Shown here one piece after another: positions 11,246 through 33,268 of a DNA stretch of 64,000 bases (within the stretch, counting starts at the first letter, position 1; each line of letters begins with the position of its first letter). Position numbers and translations under genes: made by a program. The stretch is taken from contig NZ_CP082284.1 of assembly GCF_019880225.1 (NCBI RefSeq), positions 2,542,001-2,606,000 on the forward strand, read 5' to 3'. This DNA comes from Halobaculum rubrum. Lineage in GTDB: Archaea; Halobacteriota; Halobacteria; Halobacteriales; Haloferacaceae. The notes under the pieces are model-generated. The model ran no database searches and was not told where the DNA came from. It worked only from the letters and a program-made list of their open reading frames with translations.

Positions 11246-12655
11246 ATGCCGAGAGACGAGCGGTCGACGGACGCGGCGGTCAGCGACCCCTCGGCCGCGC
11301 CAGCAACCGACGCCGAGCGGGTCGCCGTCGCGTGTCTCCGTGCCGGCATCGAGGCGTCGCTTCCGGCGACGGTCGTCGCCGAGGCCGTCTCGATTGAGGA
11401 GTCCGTGTTGGCCGTCGGGGACGATACCTACGACCTCGACGCGTACGGCCGGATCGTCGTTGTCGGCGGCGGTAAGGCGGCCGACGGCGCGGCGAGCGCC
11501 CTGGAGTCGATTCTGGGCGACCAGATCGCCGCGGGTGTGATCGTCGTCGACAGCGCGGACGACTCCGACGGCGGGGACGATGCGGGGGAGTCGCGGATCG
11601 AACGGGTCGTCGGTGGGCACCCCGTTCCGACGAGCGCCGGCGTCCACGGGACGACCCGCGCGGTTGACCTGGCCCGAGCGGCCGACGAGGAGACACTCGT
11701 GCTTGCGCTTGTCACCGGCGGCGCGAGCGCGTTGTTCGCGGCGCCGGTCGACTCGGTCGGGTTGCCCGCCTTGCGCGAGACCACGGACGCGCTGTTGAGC
11801 GCCGGCGCCGACATCGAGGAGATCAACGCCGTCCGGAAACACCTCTCGCGGGTGAAAGGCGGGCGACTCGCGGCCGCGGCCGCCCCCGCGACGGTGGTGG
11901 GGATCGCCCTCAGCGACGTGGTCGGCGACGACCTGAGCGTGATCGGTAGCGGGCCGACCGCGCCCGACGACTCGACGTACGAAACCGGCCTCGACGTACT
12001 CGATCGCTACGGGATCGACGCCCCGCCCGCTGTACGCGAGCACCTACAGCGAGGCGCGGAGGGCGCCGAACCGGAGACGCCGACGGCCGACGCGACCGTC
12101 TTCGATCGGGTCGACACGCACGTGCTCGCCAACGCGGCAACGGCGCTGGAAGCGGCCGCGGCGGCCGCCGCCGACCAAGGGTACGACCCGATCGTTCTGT
12201 CGAGTCGCATCAGGGGAGAAGCCCGGGCGGCGGGCGTGACACACGCCGCGGTCGCCGAGGAGATCGCCGACTCGGGGAACCCGATCGAGCCGCCGGCGGT
12301 CGTTCTCTCGGGCGGCGAGACGACGGTATCCGTCCAGGGCGACGGGACGGGCGGGCCGAACCTCGAGTGTGCCCTCGCCGCCGGCATCGAGTTCGCGCTC
12401 CCCGAGTCGCCGGTCGCGGATCGACCCGTCGCGTTCCTCGCCGCCGACACGGACGGCCGCGACGGCAGCACCGACGCCGCGGGCGCGCTCGTGACGGCGC
12501 AGACGGTCGGGAACGCGGCCGACGCGGCGGCTGCGCGGGCCGCGCTTGACGACAACGACGCGCTCTCCGCGTTGCGCGACCGGGACGCACTGATCCGAAC
12601 CGGCGCGACCGGGACGAACGTCAACGACCTCCGTGTCGTCGTCGTCGGGCAGTGA
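11246..12655 (+). CDS. Glycerate 2-kinase (DUF4147/MOFRL family)
   Basis: 469 residues of the GckA/MOFRL-type glycerate kinase family, converting D-glycerate and ATP to 2-phosphoglycerate. Visible: the N-terminal VVGGGKAADGAASAL, the GGHPVPTSAG motif, LVTGGASALFAAP, the RKHLSRVKGGRLA motif with catalytic Lys/Arg, SDVVGDD and a C-terminal MOFRL region with LSGGETTVSVQGDGTGGPN and ADTDGRDGSTDAAGA. Typically feeds glycerate from sugar-acid or serine breakdown into lower glycolysis. The start at 11246 lies shortly after a CCGGT context; the upstream gap gives no better start. Confidence 0.93.
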   Translation: MPRDERSTDAAVSDPSAAPATDAERVAVACLRAGIEASLPATVVAEAVSIEESVLAVGDDTYDLDAYGRIVVVGGGKAADGAASALESILGDQIAAGVIVVDSADDSDGGDDAGESRIERVVGGHPVPTSAGVHGTTRAVDLARAADEETLVLALVTGGASALFAAPVDSVGLPALRETTDALLSAGADIEEINAVRKHLSRVKGGRLAAAAAPATVVGIALSDVVGDDLSVIGSGPTAPDDSTYETGLDVLDRYGIDAPPAVREHLQRGAEGAEPETPTADATVFDRVDTHVLANAATALEAAAAAAADQGYDPIVLSSRIRGEARAAGVTHAAVAEEIADSGNPIEPPAVVLSGGETTVSVQGDGTGGPNLECALAAGIEFALPESPVADRPVAFLAADTDGRDGSTDAAGALVTAQTVGNAADAAAARAALDDNDALSALRDRDALIRTGATGTNVNDLRVVVVGQ

Positions 12656-12746
12656 GCCGCCGTCGAACAGATCTCGGCGCCCTCGGCCGGTCCGGCGGCG
12701 GCGACCGAGCGGAACGCATTTTTCGATCGATGTCGACCGCATATCT

Positions 12747-13127
12747 ATGGCGAGCGACACGCTGTACGACCGCCTCGGCGGCCACGAGGGGATCCGAGCC
12801 GTGGTCGACGAGTTCTACGACAGGCTCGCGGCCGACGAGGAGTTGGGCCCGTTCTTCGAGGACGCCGACATGGAGCGGCTCCGGGAGACACAGACTGACT
12901 TCCTGTGTGAGGCGGCAGGGGGGCCGGAGACGTACGACGCGGCGCCGGTCCGCGAGGCACACCTCCACGTTCCCTTCACGCCCGATCACATCCAGCGGGC
13001 CGTGGACCTGCTGTACGAGAGCCTGGAAGCGTTCGACGTCGACGAGTCGGACGCGGACGCCGTCGTCGATGCGGTCGCCGCCTACGAAGCCGACCTGCTG
13101 GCGGAGCAGGAAGCCGACGGCGAGTGA
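12747..13127 (+). CDS. Truncated haemoglobin, group I
   Basis: 126 residues. TrHb I features: LYDRLGGHEGI at the N-terminus, B10 tyrosine in DEFYDRLAAD (Tyr24), the FFEDADMERLRETQ motif, and the proximal histidine in REAHLHV (His72). Group I proteins bind O2 and NO and often detoxify NO. ATG 12747 begins the conserved region. It is convergent with the CoA-disulfide-reductase-like gene, 7 bases apart. Confidence 0.92.
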   Translation: MASDTLYDRLGGHEGIRAVVDEFYDRLAADEELGPFFEDADMERLRETQTDFLCEAAGGPETYDAAPVREAHLHVPFTPDHIQRAVDLLYESLEAFDVDESDADAVVDAVAAYEADLLAEQEADGE

Positions 13128-24617: not shown

Positions 24618-25298
24618 CTACGATCCGCCGACCCTCGGCCGAACGGTCAGCACCGCGACCGAGAGGACGTACGCGACCGTGGCGAGGAGGTACGTGCCGC
24701 CGGCGGCGGCCGGTGTCGTCCCGAAACCGAGCCCGACGCCCCCGAGCGTGCTCCCGACGGCTGCGACGAGGGGCAGCGCGCAACTGGCGCACGACCCGAG
24801 CGCGATCAGGCCGGCGACGCCGGCGGAGGACCCGTATTCGGCGACGTCACGGACGGCCAACGAGACGAGATACGCCAGCGCCCCGTAGCCGATGACTCGG
24901 TAAGGGAACAGGAACAGCGAGACGAGCGGGCCGTCGTAGCGCACCATCGGCCCCCACCACGGCGGGAGCAGCACCACGTCGAGCCCGGTCGCTACGCCGG
25001 ACGAGAGCCCGACTGCACCGGTGACCCATCCGAGGATGATAGCGTAGGCGGCGCCCACGAGGCCGGCGAGTGCGAGGACACCGCGACCCGATTCCGGACG
25101 GCCGGCGTGACGAACGCCGACAGCCGCGGCGGTGATCCAGACGAGCGGGATCGCGAGCGTCCGCGGCGCCGCGAGCCCGGCGTCGGTCGCCGCGAGGTAC
25201 GCCAGCGCGAGCGCGGACTGCGCCCCGAGCGCGAGCACCGCGGTTCTGCCGTACTCGGTCGGCGAGTCGACCGAAAACCGCGTGACGAGGGGGTTCAT
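24618..25298 (-). CDS. Haloarchaeal membrane protein beside the copper ATPase
   Basis: 226 residues, about seven hydrophobic helices, with a GSCASCALPLVAAV segment (CASC) in the fifth or sixth helix, suggestive of metal or thiol chemistry in the membrane. Starts 4 bases inside the end of the P-type ATPase gene (overlap), so it is its translational partner. No known function; a role in copper delivery to the oxidase is inferred from position only. Confidence 0.75.
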   Translation of the reverse strand: MNPLVTRFSVDSPTEYGRTAVLALGAQSALALAYLAATDAGLAAPRTLAIPLVWITAAAVGVRHAGRPESGRGVLALAGLVGAAYAIILGWVTGAVGLSSGVATGLDVVLLPPWWGPMVRYDGPLVSLFLFPYRVIGYGALAYLVSLAVRDVAEYGSSAGVAGLIALGSCASCALPLVAAVGSTLGGVGLGFGTTPAAAGGTYLLATVAYVLSVAVLTVRPRVGGS

Positions 25299-27967
25299 GT
25301 TGGCTCGTCCTCCTCGTTTTCCTCACCGTTCACGGTAGCGCCGGGAGGTCCGGTCGGCCCGCCGTCCGCGACAGTCGGCCGGCGCCCGTCGCGCGTATCG
25401 GCGGAGTTCGGATCCGGCGTCACCGACGACGTCTCCCCGCTACCGTCACCGCCACCGTCGATCGACTCCTCGTCGGTGTCCGGGTCCGGACCGAGCGAGC
25501 GCGCGGAGTTGCCGACGACGAGGAGGCTGGAGGCGGCCATGGCCACCGCCGCCAACAGCGGCGTCACGACGCCGAGCACCGCCGCGGGGACGGCGATGGC
25601 GTTGTAGAGGAACGCCCACACGAGGTTCTCGCGGACGCGCCGCCGCGTCGCCGCGAGGGTGTCGAACGCGCGGTCGACCGACCGGAGATCGCGGCCCACG
25701 AGCACCGCGTCGGCCGCGTCGGCCGCCAACTCCGTCCCCGACGCGACCGCGATGCCGAGGTCCGCGGCCGCCAGCGCGGGCGCGTCGTTGCTCCCGTCGC
25801 CGACCATCGCGACCGTCCCCGATTCGCGGAGTCGACGAACCGTCTCCGTCTTGGCTTCCGGCGGGAGCCCGGCGTACACCTCGTCGACGCCGTCGGCGTC
25901 GCGGAGGCGGTCGGCGGCCGGCCCCTCGTCGCCGGTGAGCACGACGACACGTCGGTCATCGCTGAGCGCCGCGACGGCCGCACGCCACCCCGGACGCGGG
26001 TCGTCGACCGCGACGAGCACGCCGCGGACGGCGTCGTCCCAGCCGACGTAGGCGGCGAGGTGACCGCCGGCCTCCGCGGCGTCGTATCGGTCCCGCAGTT
26101 CGCTCGGCACGTGGATGTCGTCCTCGTCGAAGAGGGACTCGCCGCCGACGGTGACACGCGGGCCGCCGTCGACGTGACCGGAGACGCCGCGACCCGGGTG
26201 CGTCTCGAAGCCCTCGACGGTCGAATCCGGGCCGAACACGCTCTCGCCGTCCCGTCCACCGGACGCGTCCGACTCGGCCGCCGCATCGACGACCGCGGCG
26301 GCGACGGGATGATCGGAGCGCGCCTCGACGGCCGCGGCGCGGCCGAGCAGTTCGGCGCGGTCCGTCCCGTCGGCGGGGATCGCCTCCCGAAGCGCCATCT
26401 CGCCGGTCGTCAGGGTCCCCGTCTTGTCGAGCGCGACCACGTCCACCTCGTCGGCGGTCTCGACCGCGCTCCCGTCGGTCAACACGACTCCGTCCGCGAG
26501 CAGCGAGCGCGTCCCGGCTGCGATCGCCAGCGGCGTCGCCAGTCCCAGCGCACACGGACACGAGACCACGAGCACCGCGAGGCCGGTGAGCAGCGCCTCC
26601 GTCGGCGGCGCGCCGAGCGCCAAGTGGACGAGGAACGCGAGCGTCCCGAGGACGAGGACCACCGGGACGAAGATCGTCGCCAGCGCGTCGGCCAACTGCT
26701 GTGGCGCGCCCTCGCCGCGGACGTCCCACAGCAGCGAGACCACGCGATCGAGCGTGCGCTCCGTGCCGTCGTCCGCCTCGACGACGAACCGGCCGTCGGA
26801 GACGACGGTCCCGCCACGGACGGTCGCGCCCGGTCCCCGGCGGACGGGAAGCGACTCGCCGGTGACGAGCGACTCGTCGACGGCGGCGGTTCCCTCGCGG
26901 ATCGTCCCGTCGACGGGGACCCGCTCGCCGGATCGCACGACTATCCGGTCGCCGCCCTCGACCGCCTCGACCGGCACGGTCTCCGTGCCGTCGGCGGTGG
27001 CGAGGCGTGCCTCGGCGACGCGGTCGCGCGTGAGGTCGGTCAGTGTCCCGACGGCGCGGCGCTTGACGCGCTCCTCGTAGTACGTGCCGACGGTAACCGC
27101 CATGATCACGACGACCGTCACGTCGAAGTACACCTCGACGCGCCCGAGCAGGATCGCGAGCGTGCTGTAGAGGTAGGCGGTCGTCGCGGCGAGCGCGACG
27201 AGGAGGTCCATGTTCGGTTGACGGGTACGGACCGCGACGTACGCGCCGCGCAGCAGCGGCGCGCCGGTGTATCCGAGCACGATCGTCGCCGATACCCAGA
27301 CGTTCGCGAGGAGGAAGCTCCCGGCGCGGCCGCGGAGACCGAACAACAGCGCCTCCGTCGGCAGCCCGAAGTACGTCGGATACAGGAAGAGGACGTACCA
27401 CAGCATCGCCATCATGCCGAAGAACCCGCCGACGAGTAACCGCCCGATCGTTTCGTCGTCGTCGCCGACGCCGTCCGCGTCGGTGGTGGGTGCCGCCGTG
27501 TAGCCCACGCCCGCGACGGCGTCGGCGACGGCGCCCGGGTCGGTGCGCTCGGAGTCGTAGTGGACCCGCATCGCGTCCGCCGGGAAGTTCGCGTCCGCGG
27601 CTGCGACGCCGTCCACGCCGCCGGCACGTCCCTCGAGGAACGCCTCGCAACTCGCGCAGTGCATGCCGTCGACCCGGAGATACGCCGTCTCGGCGTCGTC
27701 CGGGACAGTCGCGTCGGCGCTCCCGGGCGCACTCTCGTCCGTCCCGCGAACCGCGTCCCGGGCGTCGTCTGCGTCCACGCCGGCGGGGTCCTCGAGCGTC
27801 CGCGCGACTTCGAGACAGCCCCGGCAGCAGAAGCTGCCATCCACACCGGCGTCAGTTACGGGCGGGTTCGGGAGTGACAGTCCGCACAGTGTGCAAGCGT
27901 CGGGTTCCCCGGAGTCGTCGCTGCCGACGCTGCTAGCGTCGCTGCGAGCGTCGGCGGCGTCGCTCAC
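25295..27967 (-). CDS. CopA/CcoI-like heavy-metal P-type ATPase
   Basis: 890 residues, P1B-type ATPase. Order: an N-terminal cysteine cluster (CTLC 25-28, FCCRGC 46-51) like the CcoI/FixI metal-binding domain; an HMA domain with GMHCASC (Cys104, Cys107); eight membrane helices; actuator ESLVTGESLP; intramembrane SCPCALGLATP; phosphorylation DKTGTLTT; hinge MVGDGSNDAPAL. The Cys cluster, as in CcoI, argues for export of Cu+ to a haem-copper oxidase rather than detoxification. GTG 27967 is used: it overlaps the TauE/SafE-like stop (GTGA). An unusually long frame upstream is antisense-free but not homologous. Confidence 0.9.
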   Translation of the reverse strand: MSDAADARSDASSVGSDDSGEPDACTLCGLSLPNPPVTDAGVDGSFCCRGCLEVARTLEDPAGVDADDARDAVRGTDESAPGSADATVPDDAETAYLRVDGMHCASCEAFLEGRAGGVDGVAAADANFPADAMRVHYDSERTDPGAVADAVAGVGYTAAPTTDADGVGDDDETIGRLLVGGFFGMMAMLWYVLFLYPTYFGLPTEALLFGLRGRAGSFLLANVWVSATIVLGYTGAPLLRGAYVAVRTRQPNMDLLVALAATTAYLYSTLAILLGRVEVYFDVTVVVIMAVTVGTYYEERVKRRAVGTLTDLTRDRVAEARLATADGTETVPVEAVEGGDRIVVRSGERVPVDGTIREGTAAVDESLVTGESLPVRRGPGATVRGGTVVSDGRFVVEADDGTERTLDRVVSLLWDVRGEGAPQQLADALATIFVPVVLVLGTLAFLVHLALGAPPTEALLTGLAVLVVSCPCALGLATPLAIAAGTRSLLADGVVLTDGSAVETADEVDVVALDKTGTLTTGEMALREAIPADGTDRAELLGRAAAVEARSDHPVAAAVVDAAAESDASGGRDGESVFGPDSTVEGFETHPGRGVSGHVDGGPRVTVGGESLFDEDDIHVPSELRDRYDAAEAGGHLAAYVGWDDAVRGVLVAVDDPRPGWRAAVAALSDDRRVVVLTGDEGPAADRLRDADGVDEVYAGLPPEAKTETVRRLRESGTVAMVGDGSNDAPALAAADLGIAVASGTELAADAADAVLVGRDLRSVDRAFDTLAATRRRVRENLVWAFLYNAIAVPAAVLGVVTPLLAAVAMAASSLLVVGNSARSLGPDPDTDEESIDGGGDGSGETSSVTPDPNSADTRDGRRPTVADGGPTGPPGATVNGEENEEDEPT

Positions 27968-28737
27968 GGGGACGGCACCTCGGCGTAGTGCGGGAGGTGG
28001 ACCATCGGAACGGGTACACCGAGCAATCCGAGACCGTGCAGCAGGGGGAGCAACCCGAGCAGTAGGAACGCACCCCCGAGCACGCGGTGGACGCGGCCGC
28101 GAACCGACGGCGGGACGGCGCTGAGAACCGTGGCGTACCCCACCATCGCGGGGGCGGTGCCGACGCCGAGGGCGCCGAGCGCGAGCGCGCCCACCGTCGG
28201 CGACCCTCGCGCGAACGCATAGAGGTACGCGGGGTACAGCAGCGGGCACGGAAGGAGCGCGTGCAGAGACCCGAGGATCGCGATCTTGGGACCGTCGGCC
28301 CACTCCTCGGCACGGCTGCCGGCTACCCGTGCGATCCGTCCGAAGGCAGTCGAGACCCCGGGGATCGGAATCCGGCCGGGGTCCAACGGTCGGCCGCGAA
28401 CGTAGCCGATCCCGACGACGATGACGACGAGTCCGGCGGCGACGCCGGCGACGCCGCGAACCAGATCGGCACCGGCGAACAGGCTCCCGCCGGCGATCGC
28501 GGCGCCGCCGAGCGCGCCGAGAACGGCGCCCACGAGCGCGTACGTCCCGACGCGACCGAGGGTGAGCAGCCCCTGCTGGCGAACGTCGTGCAACGTCACC
28601 CGTCCGGACTCGCCGCCGGCGTCTCCGGCGTACGAGGTGACGAGCGGCCCGCACATCCCCAGGCAGTGGGCGCCGCCCAACAGGCCGACGAGAAAGAACG
28701 CCCCGAGTTCGACCGCGCCCCCGAGCACAGCGGTCAT
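27964..28737 (-). CDS. TauE/SafE-family (UreH-like) membrane protein
   Basis: 257 residues, about six hydrophobic helices. The first helix carries GGAHCLGMCGP, the conserved HCxGMCGP motif of the sulfite-exporter-like/CcoH-associated family, with two cysteines and a histidine able to hold copper. A second polar helix motif is LHALLPCPLLYP. The family is commonly beside CcoI-type ATPases in oxidase assembly loci. Sits between the small membrane protein (9 bases away) and the ATPase (overlap). Confidence 0.85.
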   Translation of the reverse strand: MTAVLGGAVELGAFFLVGLLGGAHCLGMCGPLVTSYAGDAGGESGRVTLHDVRQQGLLTLGRVGTYALVGAVLGALGGAAIAGGSLFAGADLVRGVAGVAAGLVVIVVGIGYVRGRPLDPGRIPIPGVSTAFGRIARVAGSRAEEWADGPKIAILGSLHALLPCPLLYPAYLYAFARGSPTVGALALGALGVGTAPAMVGYATVLSAVPPSVRGRVHRVLGGAFLLLGLLPLLHGLGLLGVPVPMVHLPHYAEVPSP

Positions 28738-29047: not shown

Positions 29048-30298
29048 ATGGTACAGAAGCGAGATGGTTTCGCCGGCCCGACGCGCCGGCGGGTACTGGC
29101 CGCCGGCGCCGCGGCAGCCGGCGGGGCGCTGCTCGGCGGCGCAGCGCCCGCGGCGGCTCAGTCGGGCCCCGACTTCGACGGGTGGTTCGACGACGTCCCC
29201 AACTACGACGGGGTCGTCGACCGGACGGGCCAGTCGGAGGTCACCGTGGAGGTCGGCGTCGAGAACGGCGACGGACCCTACGGCTTCGGCCCGGCAGCCG
29301 TTCGCGTGGACCCGGGAACGACGGTCGTGTGGGAATGGAACGGCCAGGGCGGCTCACACAACGTGATCGCCGAGAACGACCCGTATAGCTACGAGTCCGA
29401 GCTGGTCGCCGAAGCCGGTCACACGTTCAGCCACACCTTCGAGGAGGAGGGAATCTCGAAGTACTTCTGTCAGCCGCACCGCGCGCTCGGCATGAAGGGT
29501 GCGGTCGTCGTCGGCGGAAGCGGCGGTGGTGGAAGCGGCGGCGGAGGCGGATCGGTGTCCGAGCCCGATTTCGACGGCTGGTTCGACGACGTTTCGAACT
29601 ACTCGAGCACCGTCGACGAGCGTGGCCAGTCGGAGGTCACCGTGGAGGTCGGCGTCGAGAACGGCGACGGACCCTACGGCTTCGGTCCGGCGTCCGTCCG
29701 CGTTGACCCGGGAACGACTGTCACGTGGGAATGGAACGGTCAGGGCGGCTCACACAACGTGATCGCCGAGAACGACCCGTACAGCTACGAGTCCGAGTTG
29801 GTCGCCGAGGCCGGCCACACGTTCAGCCACACATTCGAACAGGAGGGCGTCTCGAAGTACTTCTGCCAGCCGCACCGCGCGCTCGGCATGAAGGGTGCGG
29901 TCGTCGTCGGCGACGTCAGCGGCGGCGGCGGTAGTGGCGGCGGCGGTGGCGAGAGCGGCGATGGATCGGCCGAGGGTTCCGGCGGATCGCCGTTCGTTCC
30001 AACCGATTTCAACGGATGGTTCGCGCTCCTGTTCGGCGGCACCATCGCGATGGCCGTCGCCGGCGTGCTCGGCAACGAGGCGTTGGTCGCCTATCGAGAC
30101 CACGCGAGCGCGGAGGAGGCCTACGTTCGAGACAGACCGGTCGAAGCGGTCGAGGAAGAGGCGGAGGTCGAACTCGGCGAGGAGTACAACCCGCTCGGGA
30201 CGGCCGCGCTCGTCGTGGGGTACTTCGTGTTGATCTCGGCGCTGTGGGTCTTCATGTATTTCGTCGAGTACCTCGGCGGTCCGACCATTACTGGGTGA
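29048..30298 (+). CDS. Double halocyanin fused to oxidase-type membrane helices
   Basis: 416 residues. A Tat signal (PTRRRVLAAGAA) is followed by two nearly identical type-1 copper domains: ligands His104, Cys141, His144, Met149 and His236, Cys273, His276, Met281. A Gly/Ser linker separates them and a second Gly/Ser linker leads to two hydrophobic segments (about 323-342 and 384-407). The final segment resembles the small CbaD-type subunit of ba3 oxidase. So it probably hands electrons from the bc-like or other donor to the CuA of CbaB while anchored beside it. First gene of the rightward cba operon, 4 bases before cbaB. Confidence 0.9.
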   Translation: MVQKRDGFAGPTRRRVLAAGAAAAGGALLGGAAPAAAQSGPDFDGWFDDVPNYDGVVDRTGQSEVTVEVGVENGDGPYGFGPAAVRVDPGTTVVWEWNGQGGSHNVIAENDPYSYESELVAEAGHTFSHTFEEEGISKYFCQPHRALGMKGAVVVGGSGGGGSGGGGGSVSEPDFDGWFDDVSNYSSTVDERGQSEVTVEVGVENGDGPYGFGPASVRVDPGTTVTWEWNGQGGSHNVIAENDPYSYESELVAEAGHTFSHTFEQEGVSKYFCQPHRALGMKGAVVVGDVSGGGGSGGGGGESGDGSAEGSGGSPFVPTDFNGWFALLFGGTIAMAVAGVLGNEALVAYRDHASAEEAYVRDRPVEAVEEEAEVELGEEYNPLGTAALVVGYFVLISALWVFMYFVEYLGGPTITG

Positions 30299-30302
30299 AT
30301 CT

Positions 30303-30839
30303 ATGCACGTACACCGATTCGAGAAACTCTGGTTCGGCGCATCGCTCGTCCTGATCGTCGCGTTCATCGGGACCATCGTCTACGGCGCGATCGGCCCCGG
30401 CGTCGCGATGGTCGGCGACGACGGCGGGACGATAGACGCCGCCACCGTGGCCGACGGGGACTTCGGGCAGACGGACAACTTCCGTTCGCCCGGCGTCTAC
30501 GAGTCGAGCGACGGCGATGGCGTCGACGTGTACATCGTCGCTCGACAGTACCTGTTCAATCCCGGAACCGCACAACCGATAGAGGTGCCCAGAGGGGAGG
30601 AAGTTACCTTCCACGTCACCTCAGCGGACGTAACACACGGGTTCAACCTCGCTGGCACGAACGTCAACACGATGGTCATCCCCGGCCAAGTCGCGCGGTT
30701 CGACGTCATGTTCGACGAGACCGGGGAGTACGGGATCGTCTGTCACGAGTACTGCGGGAGCGGACACCACACGATGGCGGGTCAGCTGCACGTCGTGCCG
30801 CAGTCGCAGTTCGATACGACCGCGGGAGGTGACAACTGA
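30303..30839 (+). CDS. cbaB: ba3-type cytochrome oxidase subunit II
   Basis: 178 residues: one N-terminal membrane helix (LWFGASLVLIVAFIGTIVYG) and an external cupredoxin domain with a complete CuA site: His112 (VTHGFNL), then Cys147, Glu149, Cys151, His155, Met158 in CHEYCGSGHHTM. It receives electrons from the halocyanin. It overlaps cbaA by one base (TGATG). Confidence 0.95.
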   Translation: MHVHRFEKLWFGASLVLIVAFIGTIVYGAIGPGVAMVGDDGGTIDAATVADGDFGQTDNFRSPGVYESSDGDGVDVYIVARQYLFNPGTAQPIEVPRGEEVTFHVTSADVTHGFNLAGTNVNTMVIPGQVARFDVMFDETGEYGIVCHEYCGSGHHTMAGQLHVVPQSQFDTTAGGDN

Positions 30840-32596
30840 TGGCGACCGGACACCCGGACGACACGAGTACGCTCAGCGAGGACGACTACGTCGAGACCGA
30901 GGACGGAACCAGACACCGTAGCGCGTTCGTCGATCGATACCCCGAGGCCGCACGGATCGTGCGTATCTGTCTCGGCATCTCGTTCGCCGCGTTCGGCGTC
31001 GGCGCGCTGTTCGGACTGATCCAGGCGCTCCACCGGACGAACGTCCTCCGGGTCATTCCCTCGTCCGACTACTACACGCTCCTGACGGGCCACGGCGTCC
31101 TCCTGGCGTTGGTGTTTACAACGTTCGGCATCGCCGGCCTGTTCCAATGGGCCAGTACGCGGAGCCTCGGTATCGAACCGACGAGTTCCAAGCTGACGGC
31201 GACGTGGCTCGGGATGATGACGGTCGGCACGCTGCTTGCCGCCGGGACGATCCTCGCGGGCTTGTTCGACTGGATCCCGGCCAGCGCCGACGTGCTGTTC
31301 ACGTTCTACGCGCCGCTGAAAGCGCACCCGCTGTTCTACGTGGGCGCGGCGCTGCTCATCGTCGGCTCGTGGTTCGCCGGCGCGAGCTACTTCCTGCAGT
31401 ACCGCGAGTGGCGGTCGGAGAACCCCGACGCGCGCATCCCGCTGCAGTCGTTCATGGTGATGACGACGATGCTGATGTGGTACATCTCGACGCTCGGGGT
31501 GGCCGTGGAGGTCGTCGTCTTCCTCATCCCGTGGTCGCTCGGCCTCATTCAGCAGGTCGACCCGCTGCTCACGCGGACGCTGTTCTGGTACTTCGGACAC
31601 CCGGTCGTGTACTTCTGGCTGCTGCCGGCGTACGTTATCTGGTACACCGTGTTGCCCAAGCTGTCGGGCGGTCGCCTGTTCAGCGACCCGCTCGCTCGTG
31701 TGGTGTTCGTGCTGTTCCTCATCCTCTCGACGCCGGTCGGGTTCCACCACCAGTACACCGACCCCGGGATCGCCTCGGGGTACAAGTTCGTCGCGATGAC
31801 GAACACGTTCTTCCTGCTGTTGCCGTCGCTGTTGACGCTGTTCACGGTCGTCGCCAGTATGGAGCACGGCGCCCGCCAACGCGGCGGCTCGGGCTATCTC
31901 GGCTGGTTGAAGGCGCTGCCGTGGGAGAAGCCGGCGTTCGCCGGGATCGCCCTCTCGGGAATCATGTTCGCCGCCGGCGGCTTCTCGGGCATGATCAACG
32001 CCGGGATGAACATCAACTACCTCATCCACAACACGCTGTGGGTGCCCGGCCACTTCCATCTCACCGTCGGGACCGCGTTCGCGCTCACGCTGATGGCGGT
32101 CTCCTACTGGCTGGTACCACAGGTGACCGGGAAGCGACTCCAGTTGTACGGGGTCGCCTCGCTGCAGCCGTACGTGTGGTTCGTGGGGATGGTGCTGATG
32201 TCGAACGCGATGCACCGCGCCGGCCTCGCGGGCATCCCCCGTCGGACGGCCGAGCCGCAGTACGACCAGTTCAGCTTCCAGGCGGTCGCGGGCAGCGTGG
32301 GCGAGATGCGCATCCAGATCGCCATCGGCGGCACGCTGCTGTTCATCGGGGCCGCGATGTTCCTCGCGGTCATGCTGGCGACGTGGACGATGGGGAAGTC
32401 CAACAGCCAGCTCCGGGTGAACGGGTACCTCCCCGAGCCGATGTCGGGGGCGACGGACTCGCCCCGGGTGCTCGACAATCTGAAGCTGTGGGCCGCCATC
32501 GCGATCGTGCTCGTCGCGCTCGCGTACGGCCTCCCGCTGTTCGACATGGTCGCCGACGGCGTGCTCAGTCCGGGGAGCGTCCCGGTGCCGGCGTAG
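30839..32596 (+). CDS. cbaA: ba3-type cytochrome oxidase subunit I
   Basis: 585 residues with 13 or so membrane helices. Low-spin haem and CuB ligands are visible in GHGVLLALVFTTFG, the cross-linked His-Tyr pair in FGHPVVYFWLLPAY, HHQYTDPG for CuB, and HNTLWVPGHFHLTVG for haem ligands. Type B subunit I (no extra helix pair) lacking the D-channel motif of A-type enzymes. Reduces O2 to water and pumps protons. Follows cbaB by one-base overlap. Confidence 0.96.
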   Translation: MATGHPDDTSTLSEDDYVETEDGTRHRSAFVDRYPEAARIVRICLGISFAAFGVGALFGLIQALHRTNVLRVIPSSDYYTLLTGHGVLLALVFTTFGIAGLFQWASTRSLGIEPTSSKLTATWLGMMTVGTLLAAGTILAGLFDWIPASADVLFTFYAPLKAHPLFYVGAALLIVGSWFAGASYFLQYREWRSENPDARIPLQSFMVMTTMLMWYISTLGVAVEVVVFLIPWSLGLIQQVDPLLTRTLFWYFGHPVVYFWLLPAYVIWYTVLPKLSGGRLFSDPLARVVFVLFLILSTPVGFHHQYTDPGIASGYKFVAMTNTFFLLLPSLLTLFTVVASMEHGARQRGGSGYLGWLKALPWEKPAFAGIALSGIMFAAGGFSGMINAGMNINYLIHNTLWVPGHFHLTVGTAFALTLMAVSYWLVPQVTGKRLQLYGVASLQPYVWFVGMVLMSNAMHRAGLAGIPRRTAEPQYDQFSFQAVAGSVGEMRIQIAIGGTLLFIGAAMFLAVMLATWTMGKSNSQLRVNGYLPEPMSGATDSPRVLDNLKLWAAIAIVLVALAYGLPLFDMVADGVLSPGSVPVPA

Positions 32597-32644: not shown

Positions 32645-33268
32645 ATGACTCCCGACGACTCAGACACGGACGACGTGACCGCACCGCCCGACTCGGCCGC
32701 GGCCGACTCGTCGCGCTCCGACGAGGATCTCGACCGCCGCCGGCTGATCCGGTGGATAGCCGTGCTCGCGTTCGCAGTCCCCGTGATCGTCGAACTGCTC
32801 ACCTTCGGGGGACTGATCGAAAACACGCTCTTCCCCGGCGGCGACGGTGATACCGGCGGAACGGCGACTGACGGCACCGAAACGGCGACGGCGACGCCCG
32901 GCGAAGACGCCGTCGGCGTCGGCGACGAACTCCTCCCGGACGAACCGACGGTCGAGACTGTCGAGGTCTCGGAGGTCAGAGGCGAGTCGGCCAGCTCACG
33001 GACCTACGTGCTCCGCGTGGCCGTCGAGAACACGACCGAGAACTCCGTCGAACTCCGCCTCACGGGTGTCACCCTCCGCGACGGGGCGTCCCTCGAGAGC
33101 GTCTCGACGACGGGAGCGATCCCGGCCGGCGGGGCCGGCGAAGTGACCGGTGCCTGGGGACTCCCGACCGACTCGATGCCCGTCGCCGTCGACGTCGTGT
33201 TGCTGCGAGACGGCGACGAGTCGACGTCGCGATCGGTCCCGCTGAAGCGGCCACCCATCCGTGGCTGA
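32645..33268 (+). CDS. Membrane-anchored protein downstream of cbaA
   Basis: 207 residues: acidic cytoplasmic N-terminus, one membrane helix (about 36-58), a Gly/Thr-rich linker and a C-terminal beta domain with TYVLRVAVENTTENSVELRL, resembling haloarchaeal Ig-like surface domains. The gene starts 48 bases after cbaA and is in the same direction, so it could be an assembly or accessory factor. Function unknown. Confidence 0.7.
   Translation: MTPDDSDTDDVTAPPDSAAADSSRSDEDLDRRRLIRWIAVLAFAVPVIVELLTFGGLIENTLFPGGDGDTGGTATDGTETATATPGEDAVGVGDELLPDEPTVETVEVSEVRGESASSRTYVLRVAVENTTENSVELRLTGVTLRDGASLESVSTTGAIPAGGAGEVTGAWGLPTDSMPVAVDVVLLRDGDESTSRSVPLKRPPIRG

Follow-up and report, generated by a model that had tools for sequence, protein, structure and literature searches.

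Why should a membrane subunit of a terminal oxidase carry two copper domains at its N-terminus, and how have these two domains stayed nearly identical? The question is raised by one gene in the window, which is the whole stretch of 64 000 nucleotides of Halobaculum rubrum DNA analyzed here. We consider it likely that its product is subunit IIa (CbaD) of a haloarchaeal ba3 oxidase equipped with its own carrier, in the form of two tandem halocyanins that sit on flexible tethers outside the membrane and have been homogenized by recombination.

Architecture of the fusion protein

The features of the gene and of its oxidase neighbours are listed in Table 1. The halocyanin domain model TIGR03102 matches two stretches of the fusion protein with 302.7 bits against a curated cut-off of 93.8, and the type-1 copper ligands His, Cys, His and Met are complete in both domains (8 of 8 in the sequence). 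Aligned with each other, the domains are identical at 106 of 116 residues and at 312 of 348 nucleotides. The 36 nucleotide differences are distributed as 11, 5 and 20 over codon positions 1, 2 and 3, the longest identical run is 62 nt, and a direct repeat of 300 nt at 87% with a spacing of 396 is found inside the ORF. The best two other places in the same genome match the fusion protein at 67 and 69% identity, compared with which the likeness of the twins is confirmed to be far above chance. The sequence-only reading was therefore right in describing twin, near-identical halocyanin domains with all eight ligands.

The twin-arginine motif in the signal region suggests that the protein is exported by the Tat pathway. 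In the AlphaFold model, which is of the chain without copper or partner subunits, the halocyanin domains form two β-sandwiches with 10-residue block means of 83–95, and the linkers are disordered. Two helices follow at residues 321–361 (block means 60–77) and 382–410 (block means 70–92). The global pTM is 0.37, a value that tethered domains would be expected to give. One modelled domain superposes on plastocyanin (PDB 1bxu) with a target-normalized TM score of 0.88 and an rmsd of 2.2. This match is at rank 9 of the structure search, and the ranks above it are larger multidomain copper enzymes with TM scores of about 0.2.

Table 1. Coordinates of the fusion gene, its parts and the adjoining oxidase genes in the window
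Feature	Coordinates	Strand	Evidence
hcp-cbaD fusion gene, 416 aa	29048..30298	+	ORF, TIGR03102 x2, Pfam Copper-bind, AlphaFold model
Signal region, residues 1-38, twin arginines TRRRV	29048..29161	+	Sequence; relatives' consensus TRRxxL
Halocyanin domain 1, residues 41-156	29168..29515	+	TIGR03102; ligands H104, C141, H144, M149; modelled cupredoxin fold
Glycine-rich linker 1, 16 aa	29516..29563	+	Sequence; pLDDT <50 at residues 158-169
Halocyanin domain 2, residues 173-288	29564..29911	+	TIGR03102; ligands H236, C273, H276, M281; model
Glycine/acid-rich linker 2	29912..30007	+	pLDDT <50 at residues 292-318
Extra predicted transmembrane helix, residues ~323-341, proposed topology adapter	30014..30070	+	Hydropathy
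CbaD/subunit IIa part: PLGT 382-385, predicted transmembrane helix ~388-406 with W400	30191..30265	+	Motif, hydropathy
CoxB/CbaB, CuA subunit (CHEYCGSGHHTM)	30303..30839	+	CuA motif; T. thermophilus ba3 subunit II best PDB match, E 1.6e-25
Cox1/CbaA, ba3-type subunit I	30839..32596	+	T. thermophilus ba3 subunit I best PDB match, E 6e-120

Oxidase neighbourhood and the CbaD tail

The fusion gene lies directly upstream of the subunit II gene, and only 4 nt separate its stop from the start of coxB. Among solved structures, both subunits I and II are closest to Thermus ba3, and the oxidase of the window thus appears to be ba3-type (B-type); Cox1 also matches PDB 7deg (E 4.5e-102). Upstream of the fusion gene, window positions 25298–28737 on the minus strand encode a DsbD_2-type membrane protein and a heavy-metal/copper P-type ATPase, which are plausible copper-supply genes. 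Downstream of cox1, a small ORF at 32645–33268 (+) has no Pfam or NCBIfam match, and similar ORFs are also found 3′ of cox1 in loci L055, L056 and L058.

The C-terminal part of the protein carries the CbaD signature. The Pro-x-Gly-Thr motif is present in all of the 106 CbaD tails collected, and in the window protein it opens the modelled helix 382–410. The P, G, T and W residues and the FMYFVE segment are invariant in 17 aligned tails. In 96 of 106 loci, the start of a coxB frame follows the tail at a distance that passes the gap filter; in the other ten, such a frame overlaps the tail end. A search for a solved subunit IIa among PDB chains with a 41-position tail profile gave no match at E ≤ 10; the IIa identity thus rests on the motif, the synteny and the published alignment. 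The fusion to a CbaD-like membrane subunit beside a ba3 oxidase, as read from the sequence, is borne out by the PxGT and Trp of the tail together with the coxB–cox1 synteny.

A second feature of the tail is an extra helix. By plain hydropathy, two tail helices are predicted in all 56 two-domain and all eight one-domain proteins described below, compared with a single helix in 40 of 42 unfused CbaD proteins, whose starts were guessed. The native IIa helix is one that we take to run from inside to outside, as in the Thermus structure. With the halocyanin confined to the outside at the N-terminal end, one more membrane crossing would be needed before the IIa helix. The simplest reading is that the first tail helix is an adapter, which would reverse the direction of the chain and so preserve the native orientation of the IIa helix. 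Within the stretches fetched, no halocyanin frame lies beside an unfused CbaD (0 of 42 loci).

Elsewhere in the H. rubrum genome, there is one cytochrome b match, with a petD-like ORF (assigned by eye) and a frame with one halocyanin domain nearby. A further cluster holds a COX1-family protein, a NirK-like protein (also by eye) and two single-domain halocyanins, and its COX1-family protein is read as nitric-oxide-reductase-like. Near that cluster, locus L150 contains a low-complexity ORF of acidic repeats (VEETV/VDETV runs) at positions 12141–12797.

Distribution of one- and two-domain forms

To place the fusion among its relatives, we collected distinct CbaD-tail proteins. The search of the order covered 392 genomes, of which 241 had a tail match, and the 30 loci listed plus 32 further rows with open frames of at least about 250 aa were taken. 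These loci were combined with a genus search and a contig search and deduplicated by identical last 250 residues, which gave 106 proteins; the proportions below refer to these 106 and not to the whole order, and part of the genus assignments derives from identical named loci. Two halocyanin domains are present in 56 proteins, one in eight and none in 42, and three of the 42 unfused proteins are bacterial (Aliifodinibius). The search for single, double and triple versions proposed with the sequence-only reading thus returned the first two; no triple form was found among the 106 tail-bearing proteins, where longer open frames hold only two domains. The copper-ligand pattern fits 112 of 116 domains, and the other four (L132 and L133) have HDI after the same His. 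The unfused CbaD-like tails of the halophilic Bacteroidota (L098, L102 and L103, all Aliifodinibius) also lie upstream of coxB and may reflect transfer of ba3 genes.

The two-domain fusion is found in Halobaculum saliterrae, H. gomorrense, Halolamina species and Haloarcula species, and also in the Halobacterium bonnevillei and Salinigranum salinum assemblies. Of 11 Halobaculum genomes searched, five have no match and six, including that of H. rubrum, have the tail; all six carry two domains, as do all Halolamina loci examined. A recent duplication was rejected on the basis of the six Halobaculum genomes and the other genera. The same distribution bears on the concern that the repeat is an assembly artefact. 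Tandem near-repeats are prone to mis-assembly, and domain 1 of L057 and L107 contains frame breaks; however, 36 of 348 sites distinguish the two copies, and the structure recurs in assemblies of Halobaculum and Halolamina that were made independently, so that the chance of an artefact is practically negligible. L057 and L107 were also considered as partial forms and rejected as such, since the missing remainder of domain 1 is encoded in a different frame. Both are counted among the 56, and their frame break is either a sequencing error or a real lesion.

In the protein tree, the single-domain fusions L062, L112 and L114 nest among the N domains of the two-domain proteins L120 and L123 of one genus, which suggests that domain loss also occurs. 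Two further arrangements were seen in the Halobacterium group. Stand-alone tandem halocyanins (L159–L168, mostly frames of 339–361 aa) occur in 10 of 13 genomes searched and have two domains and a hydrophobic C-terminal stretch without the CbaD tail. In L169, L170 and L172, CoxB is fused C-terminally to one halocyanin domain and is followed by cox1.

The halocyanin–CbaD fusion is in print (PMC3128077, PMC8305020, PMC3403918 and PMC2674319), and PMC2674319 gives hcpB as fused with cbaD. According to PMC3119063, HcpB of Halobacterium salinarum NRC-1 has lost one copper-binding domain by deletion relative to R1. Taken together, PMC2674319 and PMC3119063 imply a double-domain fusion in R1, and our reading of PMC8305020, PMC2674319 and PMC3119063 is that hcpB and OE_4073R are one gene. 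A double-domain form is therefore already implied in print; the sequence-only reading knew of none described. Among the matches listed in the open-licence literature (titles and the starts of abstracts), we found no report on concerted evolution of halocyanin domains, nor on the breadth of the two-domain form and its paired extra helix. What is known is thus the fusion and the implied double form, and what is new is the evidence that the twin copies have repeatedly overwritten each other.

Concerted evolution of the twin domains

The tree and site-pattern analyses cover 54 of the 56 two-domain proteins, L057 and L107 being dropped for their frame breaks. Across 15 genera, the similarity between twins exceeds that of either twin to its positional counterpart from any other genus in 53 of 54 proteins by nucleotides and in 49 of 54 by amino acids. 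The exceptions are L118 by nucleotides and L019, L020, L043, L118 and L131 by amino acids. Within genera, the order is usually reversed, and the twins beat both same-genus positional counterparts in only 3 of 46 proteins. This combination places most of the homogenization at genus depth, with some later events. One old duplication without recombination predicts a clade of all N domains; such a clade is rejected (AU p 2e-101, 39 of 54 pairs). The N and C domains of a protein are sisters in 18 of 54 cases in the codon tree and in 11 of 54 in the protein tree, where the N and C domains of Haloarcula and Halolamina are mostly split by position.

The loop that follows the first His ligand comes in four lengths, yet the twins agree in its length in all 54 proteins; for another loop, they agree in 53 of 54. 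The window protein and that of H. saliterrae carry a two-residue insertion (NDPYSY versus DG-SY) in both domains, whereas the other four Halobaculum proteins lack it in both, which indicates an indel copied between the domains. The twins thus co-evolve within the gene. Together, these patterns indicate concerted evolution through gene conversion or unequal exchange, or through repeated duplication where the genera are distant. According to PMC8223754, Haloferax volcanii efficiently converts genes between its genome copies, so such machinery would exist in the group.

Extent and timing of homogenization

Site patterns were counted for pairs of species. Over 15 species pairs in Halobaculum, 308 sites are shared within the protein, 154 by position and 35 crosswise, the last of which measure homoplasy; the corresponding numbers in Halolamina are 245, 202 and 21. 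For the closest pair, the window protein and that of H. saliterrae, position sites (17) exceed same-protein sites (3). The position signal is concentrated at the start of the domain. The first ~20 residues lie mostly outside the homogenized part in Halobaculum, Halolamina and a third genus, with VVDRTG in 10 of 14 N domains and TVD-(E/K/Q/R)-RG in 14 of 14 C domains. Over alignment codons 1–37, sites shared by position outnumber those shared within the protein in 82 of 91 pairs; over the remainder, the within-protein sites are at least as numerous in 90 of 91. This split was picked after the site patterns had been seen, and the test was then repeated with the breakpoint left free and with shuffled columns. 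The breakpoint falls after 19 residues in Halobaculum and after 21 in the others, and its statistic is reached by 8 of 5000 shuffles in Halobaculum, 15 of 5000 in Halolamina and 1 of 5000 in the set of 14 proteins. No breakpoint was found in the Haloarcula clade, where 1584 of 5000 shuffles reach the statistic. Smaller position-specific patches lie at codons 49–60 in Halobaculum and 97–108 in Halolamina.

Since the position-specific starts are kept and the body is homogenized, the duplication in the lineage of the window predates these genera, and the body has been mostly overwritten since. The alternative is that each genus made its own tandem duplication, with no old duplication followed by conversion. 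This is quite possible, if short of probable: the N and C domains cluster by genus in the trees, positional counterparts are closer within genera in most proteins, loop lengths match within proteins, and a repeat-mediated loss of a domain is reported in PMC3119063. However, a fresh duplication of the whole unit would erase the position-specific starts that Halobaculum, Halolamina and the third genus have kept, and between Halobaculum and Halolamina the position sites (7.7 per pair) exceed the cross background (1.5 per pair). Between Halobaculum and the Haloarcula clade, position sites show no excess (2.0 versus 4.2 for cross sites), and separate duplications at that distance are possible.

Silent sites bear on the further alternative that the domains never recombined and were kept alike by purifying and parallel selection, being fitted to the same CuA docking site. 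The low N–C dN of 0.063 is in its favour, as are many Haloarcula-clade proteins, in which the third-position identity of the twins is only 0.56–0.7 while their amino-acid identity is about 80%. Against it, sharing of silent changes within proteins exceeds a codon-usage null in 12 of 15 species pairs (the null reaching it in at most 100 of 2000 draws); this null was built for six proteins, and its codon usage was taken from coxB and cox1 alone. The null was not exceeded in the other three pairs, which are window–H. saliterrae (967 of 2000 draws), L011–L016 (191) and L043–L016 (231). The insertion common to both domains also speaks against selection alone, and so does the N–C dS of 0.31 in the window gene, which is less than half of the 0.64–0.80 between its domains and their orthologues in the other four Halobaculum proteins. 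We thus regard persistence without recombination as improbable.

The same dS values date the homogenization. To H. saliterrae, the dS is 0.25 between N domains and 0.26 between C domains, lower than the N–C value in the window gene. This ordering places the last broad homogenization between two splits, the earlier from the other four Halobaculum proteins and the later from H. saliterrae. L010 resembles the window protein, with a dS of 0.35 within and 0.58–1.13 to others. No clear gap is seen for L012 and L013, where values of 0.45 and 0.51 within the proteins compare with 0.64 and 0.46 from one protein to the other, or for L014 and L043, where 0.22 and 0.24 compare with 0.22 and 0.26. The sequence-only reading had offered either a very recent duplication or ongoing gene conversion. 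Homogenization of the repeats stands; a very recent duplication is not supported, in view of the relatives and of a synonymous divergence between the copies that exceeds their divergence from H. saliterrae.

Functional implications

The most likely role of the twins is that of a tethered, redundant carrier pair feeding CuA. Electrons would pass from a bc-type complex, or from other halocyanins, to either tethered domain and from there to the CuA site in CoxB. The two domains would work in parallel, since their near-identity should give them near-equal potentials, and would not form a graded wire. The built-in electron wire for the ba3 oxidase that was suggested from the sequence alone is plausible. 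Recurrent gene conversion or unequal exchange would keep the copies alike, with a function that tolerates or favours their likeness.

A serial arrangement, in which domain 1 takes electrons from the bc complex and domain 2 passes them to CuA, with potentials or docking set by position-specific residues, was weighed against this parallel scheme. It would account for the N-terminal strap kept specific to each domain in Halobaculum and Halolamina and for the position-specific codons 97–108 of Halolamina, which lie just before the Cys ligand; domain 2 is also nearer to the membrane anchor than domain 1. However, the twins have their ligand residues and the bulk of the domain body in common, and this likeness of the ligand-bearing body speaks for equivalent carriers and against a graded wire. 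One-domain forms also exist, in 8 of the 106 proteins and by the reported deletion in NRC-1, so that the second copy would add capacity and not an essential step. A serial wire is thus unlikely. The NRC-1 deletion suggests that one domain is dispensable in the laboratory.

A more specific version of the redundant pair can be offered only tentatively, and we doubt it more than we believe it. The two domains would be interchangeable, kept the same by recurrent intragenic conversion, and the unconverted N-terminal strap would have a docking role for each position. Free carriers dock weakly through electrostatics when salt is near saturation, and under such conditions the pair might then give the enzyme a two-electron buffer of its own.

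The survey turns a remark on one strain, in which HcpB loses a copper domain, into a general pattern of zero, one or two carriers in the haloarchaea sampled. These natural one- and two-domain variants provide a way to ask how tethered carriers feed a terminal oxidase, and the twin domains provide a compact system for gene conversion inside one archaeal gene.

Comparison with known systems

The closest described counterpart is HcpB/OE_4073R of Halobacterium salinarum, in which, according to the papers cited above, the halocyanin is N-terminal to CbaD as in the window protein and at least two copper domains are implied in R1. Subunit IIa (CbaD) of the Thermus, Aquifex, Natronomonas and Haloferax ba3 oxidases shares the PxGT motif, the Trp, the helix and the gene position upstream of subunit II, as given in PMC3128077. 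That subunit is small in the same source, whereas the window protein has an extra helix and two halocyanin domains. In the Halobacterium bonnevillei protein (L056), two domains are present as in the window protein, but the loop is longer and the identity to the window protein is 47%. The halocyanin of Natronomonas pharaonis is single-domain and lipid-anchored, whereas the window form is tandem and fused to an oxidase subunit. In PMC8305020, that halocyanin is a characterized blue copper carrier, and it bears the same family name as the window domains. The CoxB–halocyanin proteins of L169, L170 and L172 are tethered to the oxidase as in the window, but the one full domain they have is attached to the CuA subunit and not to CbaD. 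Finally, a cytochrome c is built into the terminal oxidase in subunit II of caa3 and in CcoP of cbb3, the latter with two carrier domains. These carriers use haem c and have unrelated folds, whereas the fusion in the window uses type-1 copper.
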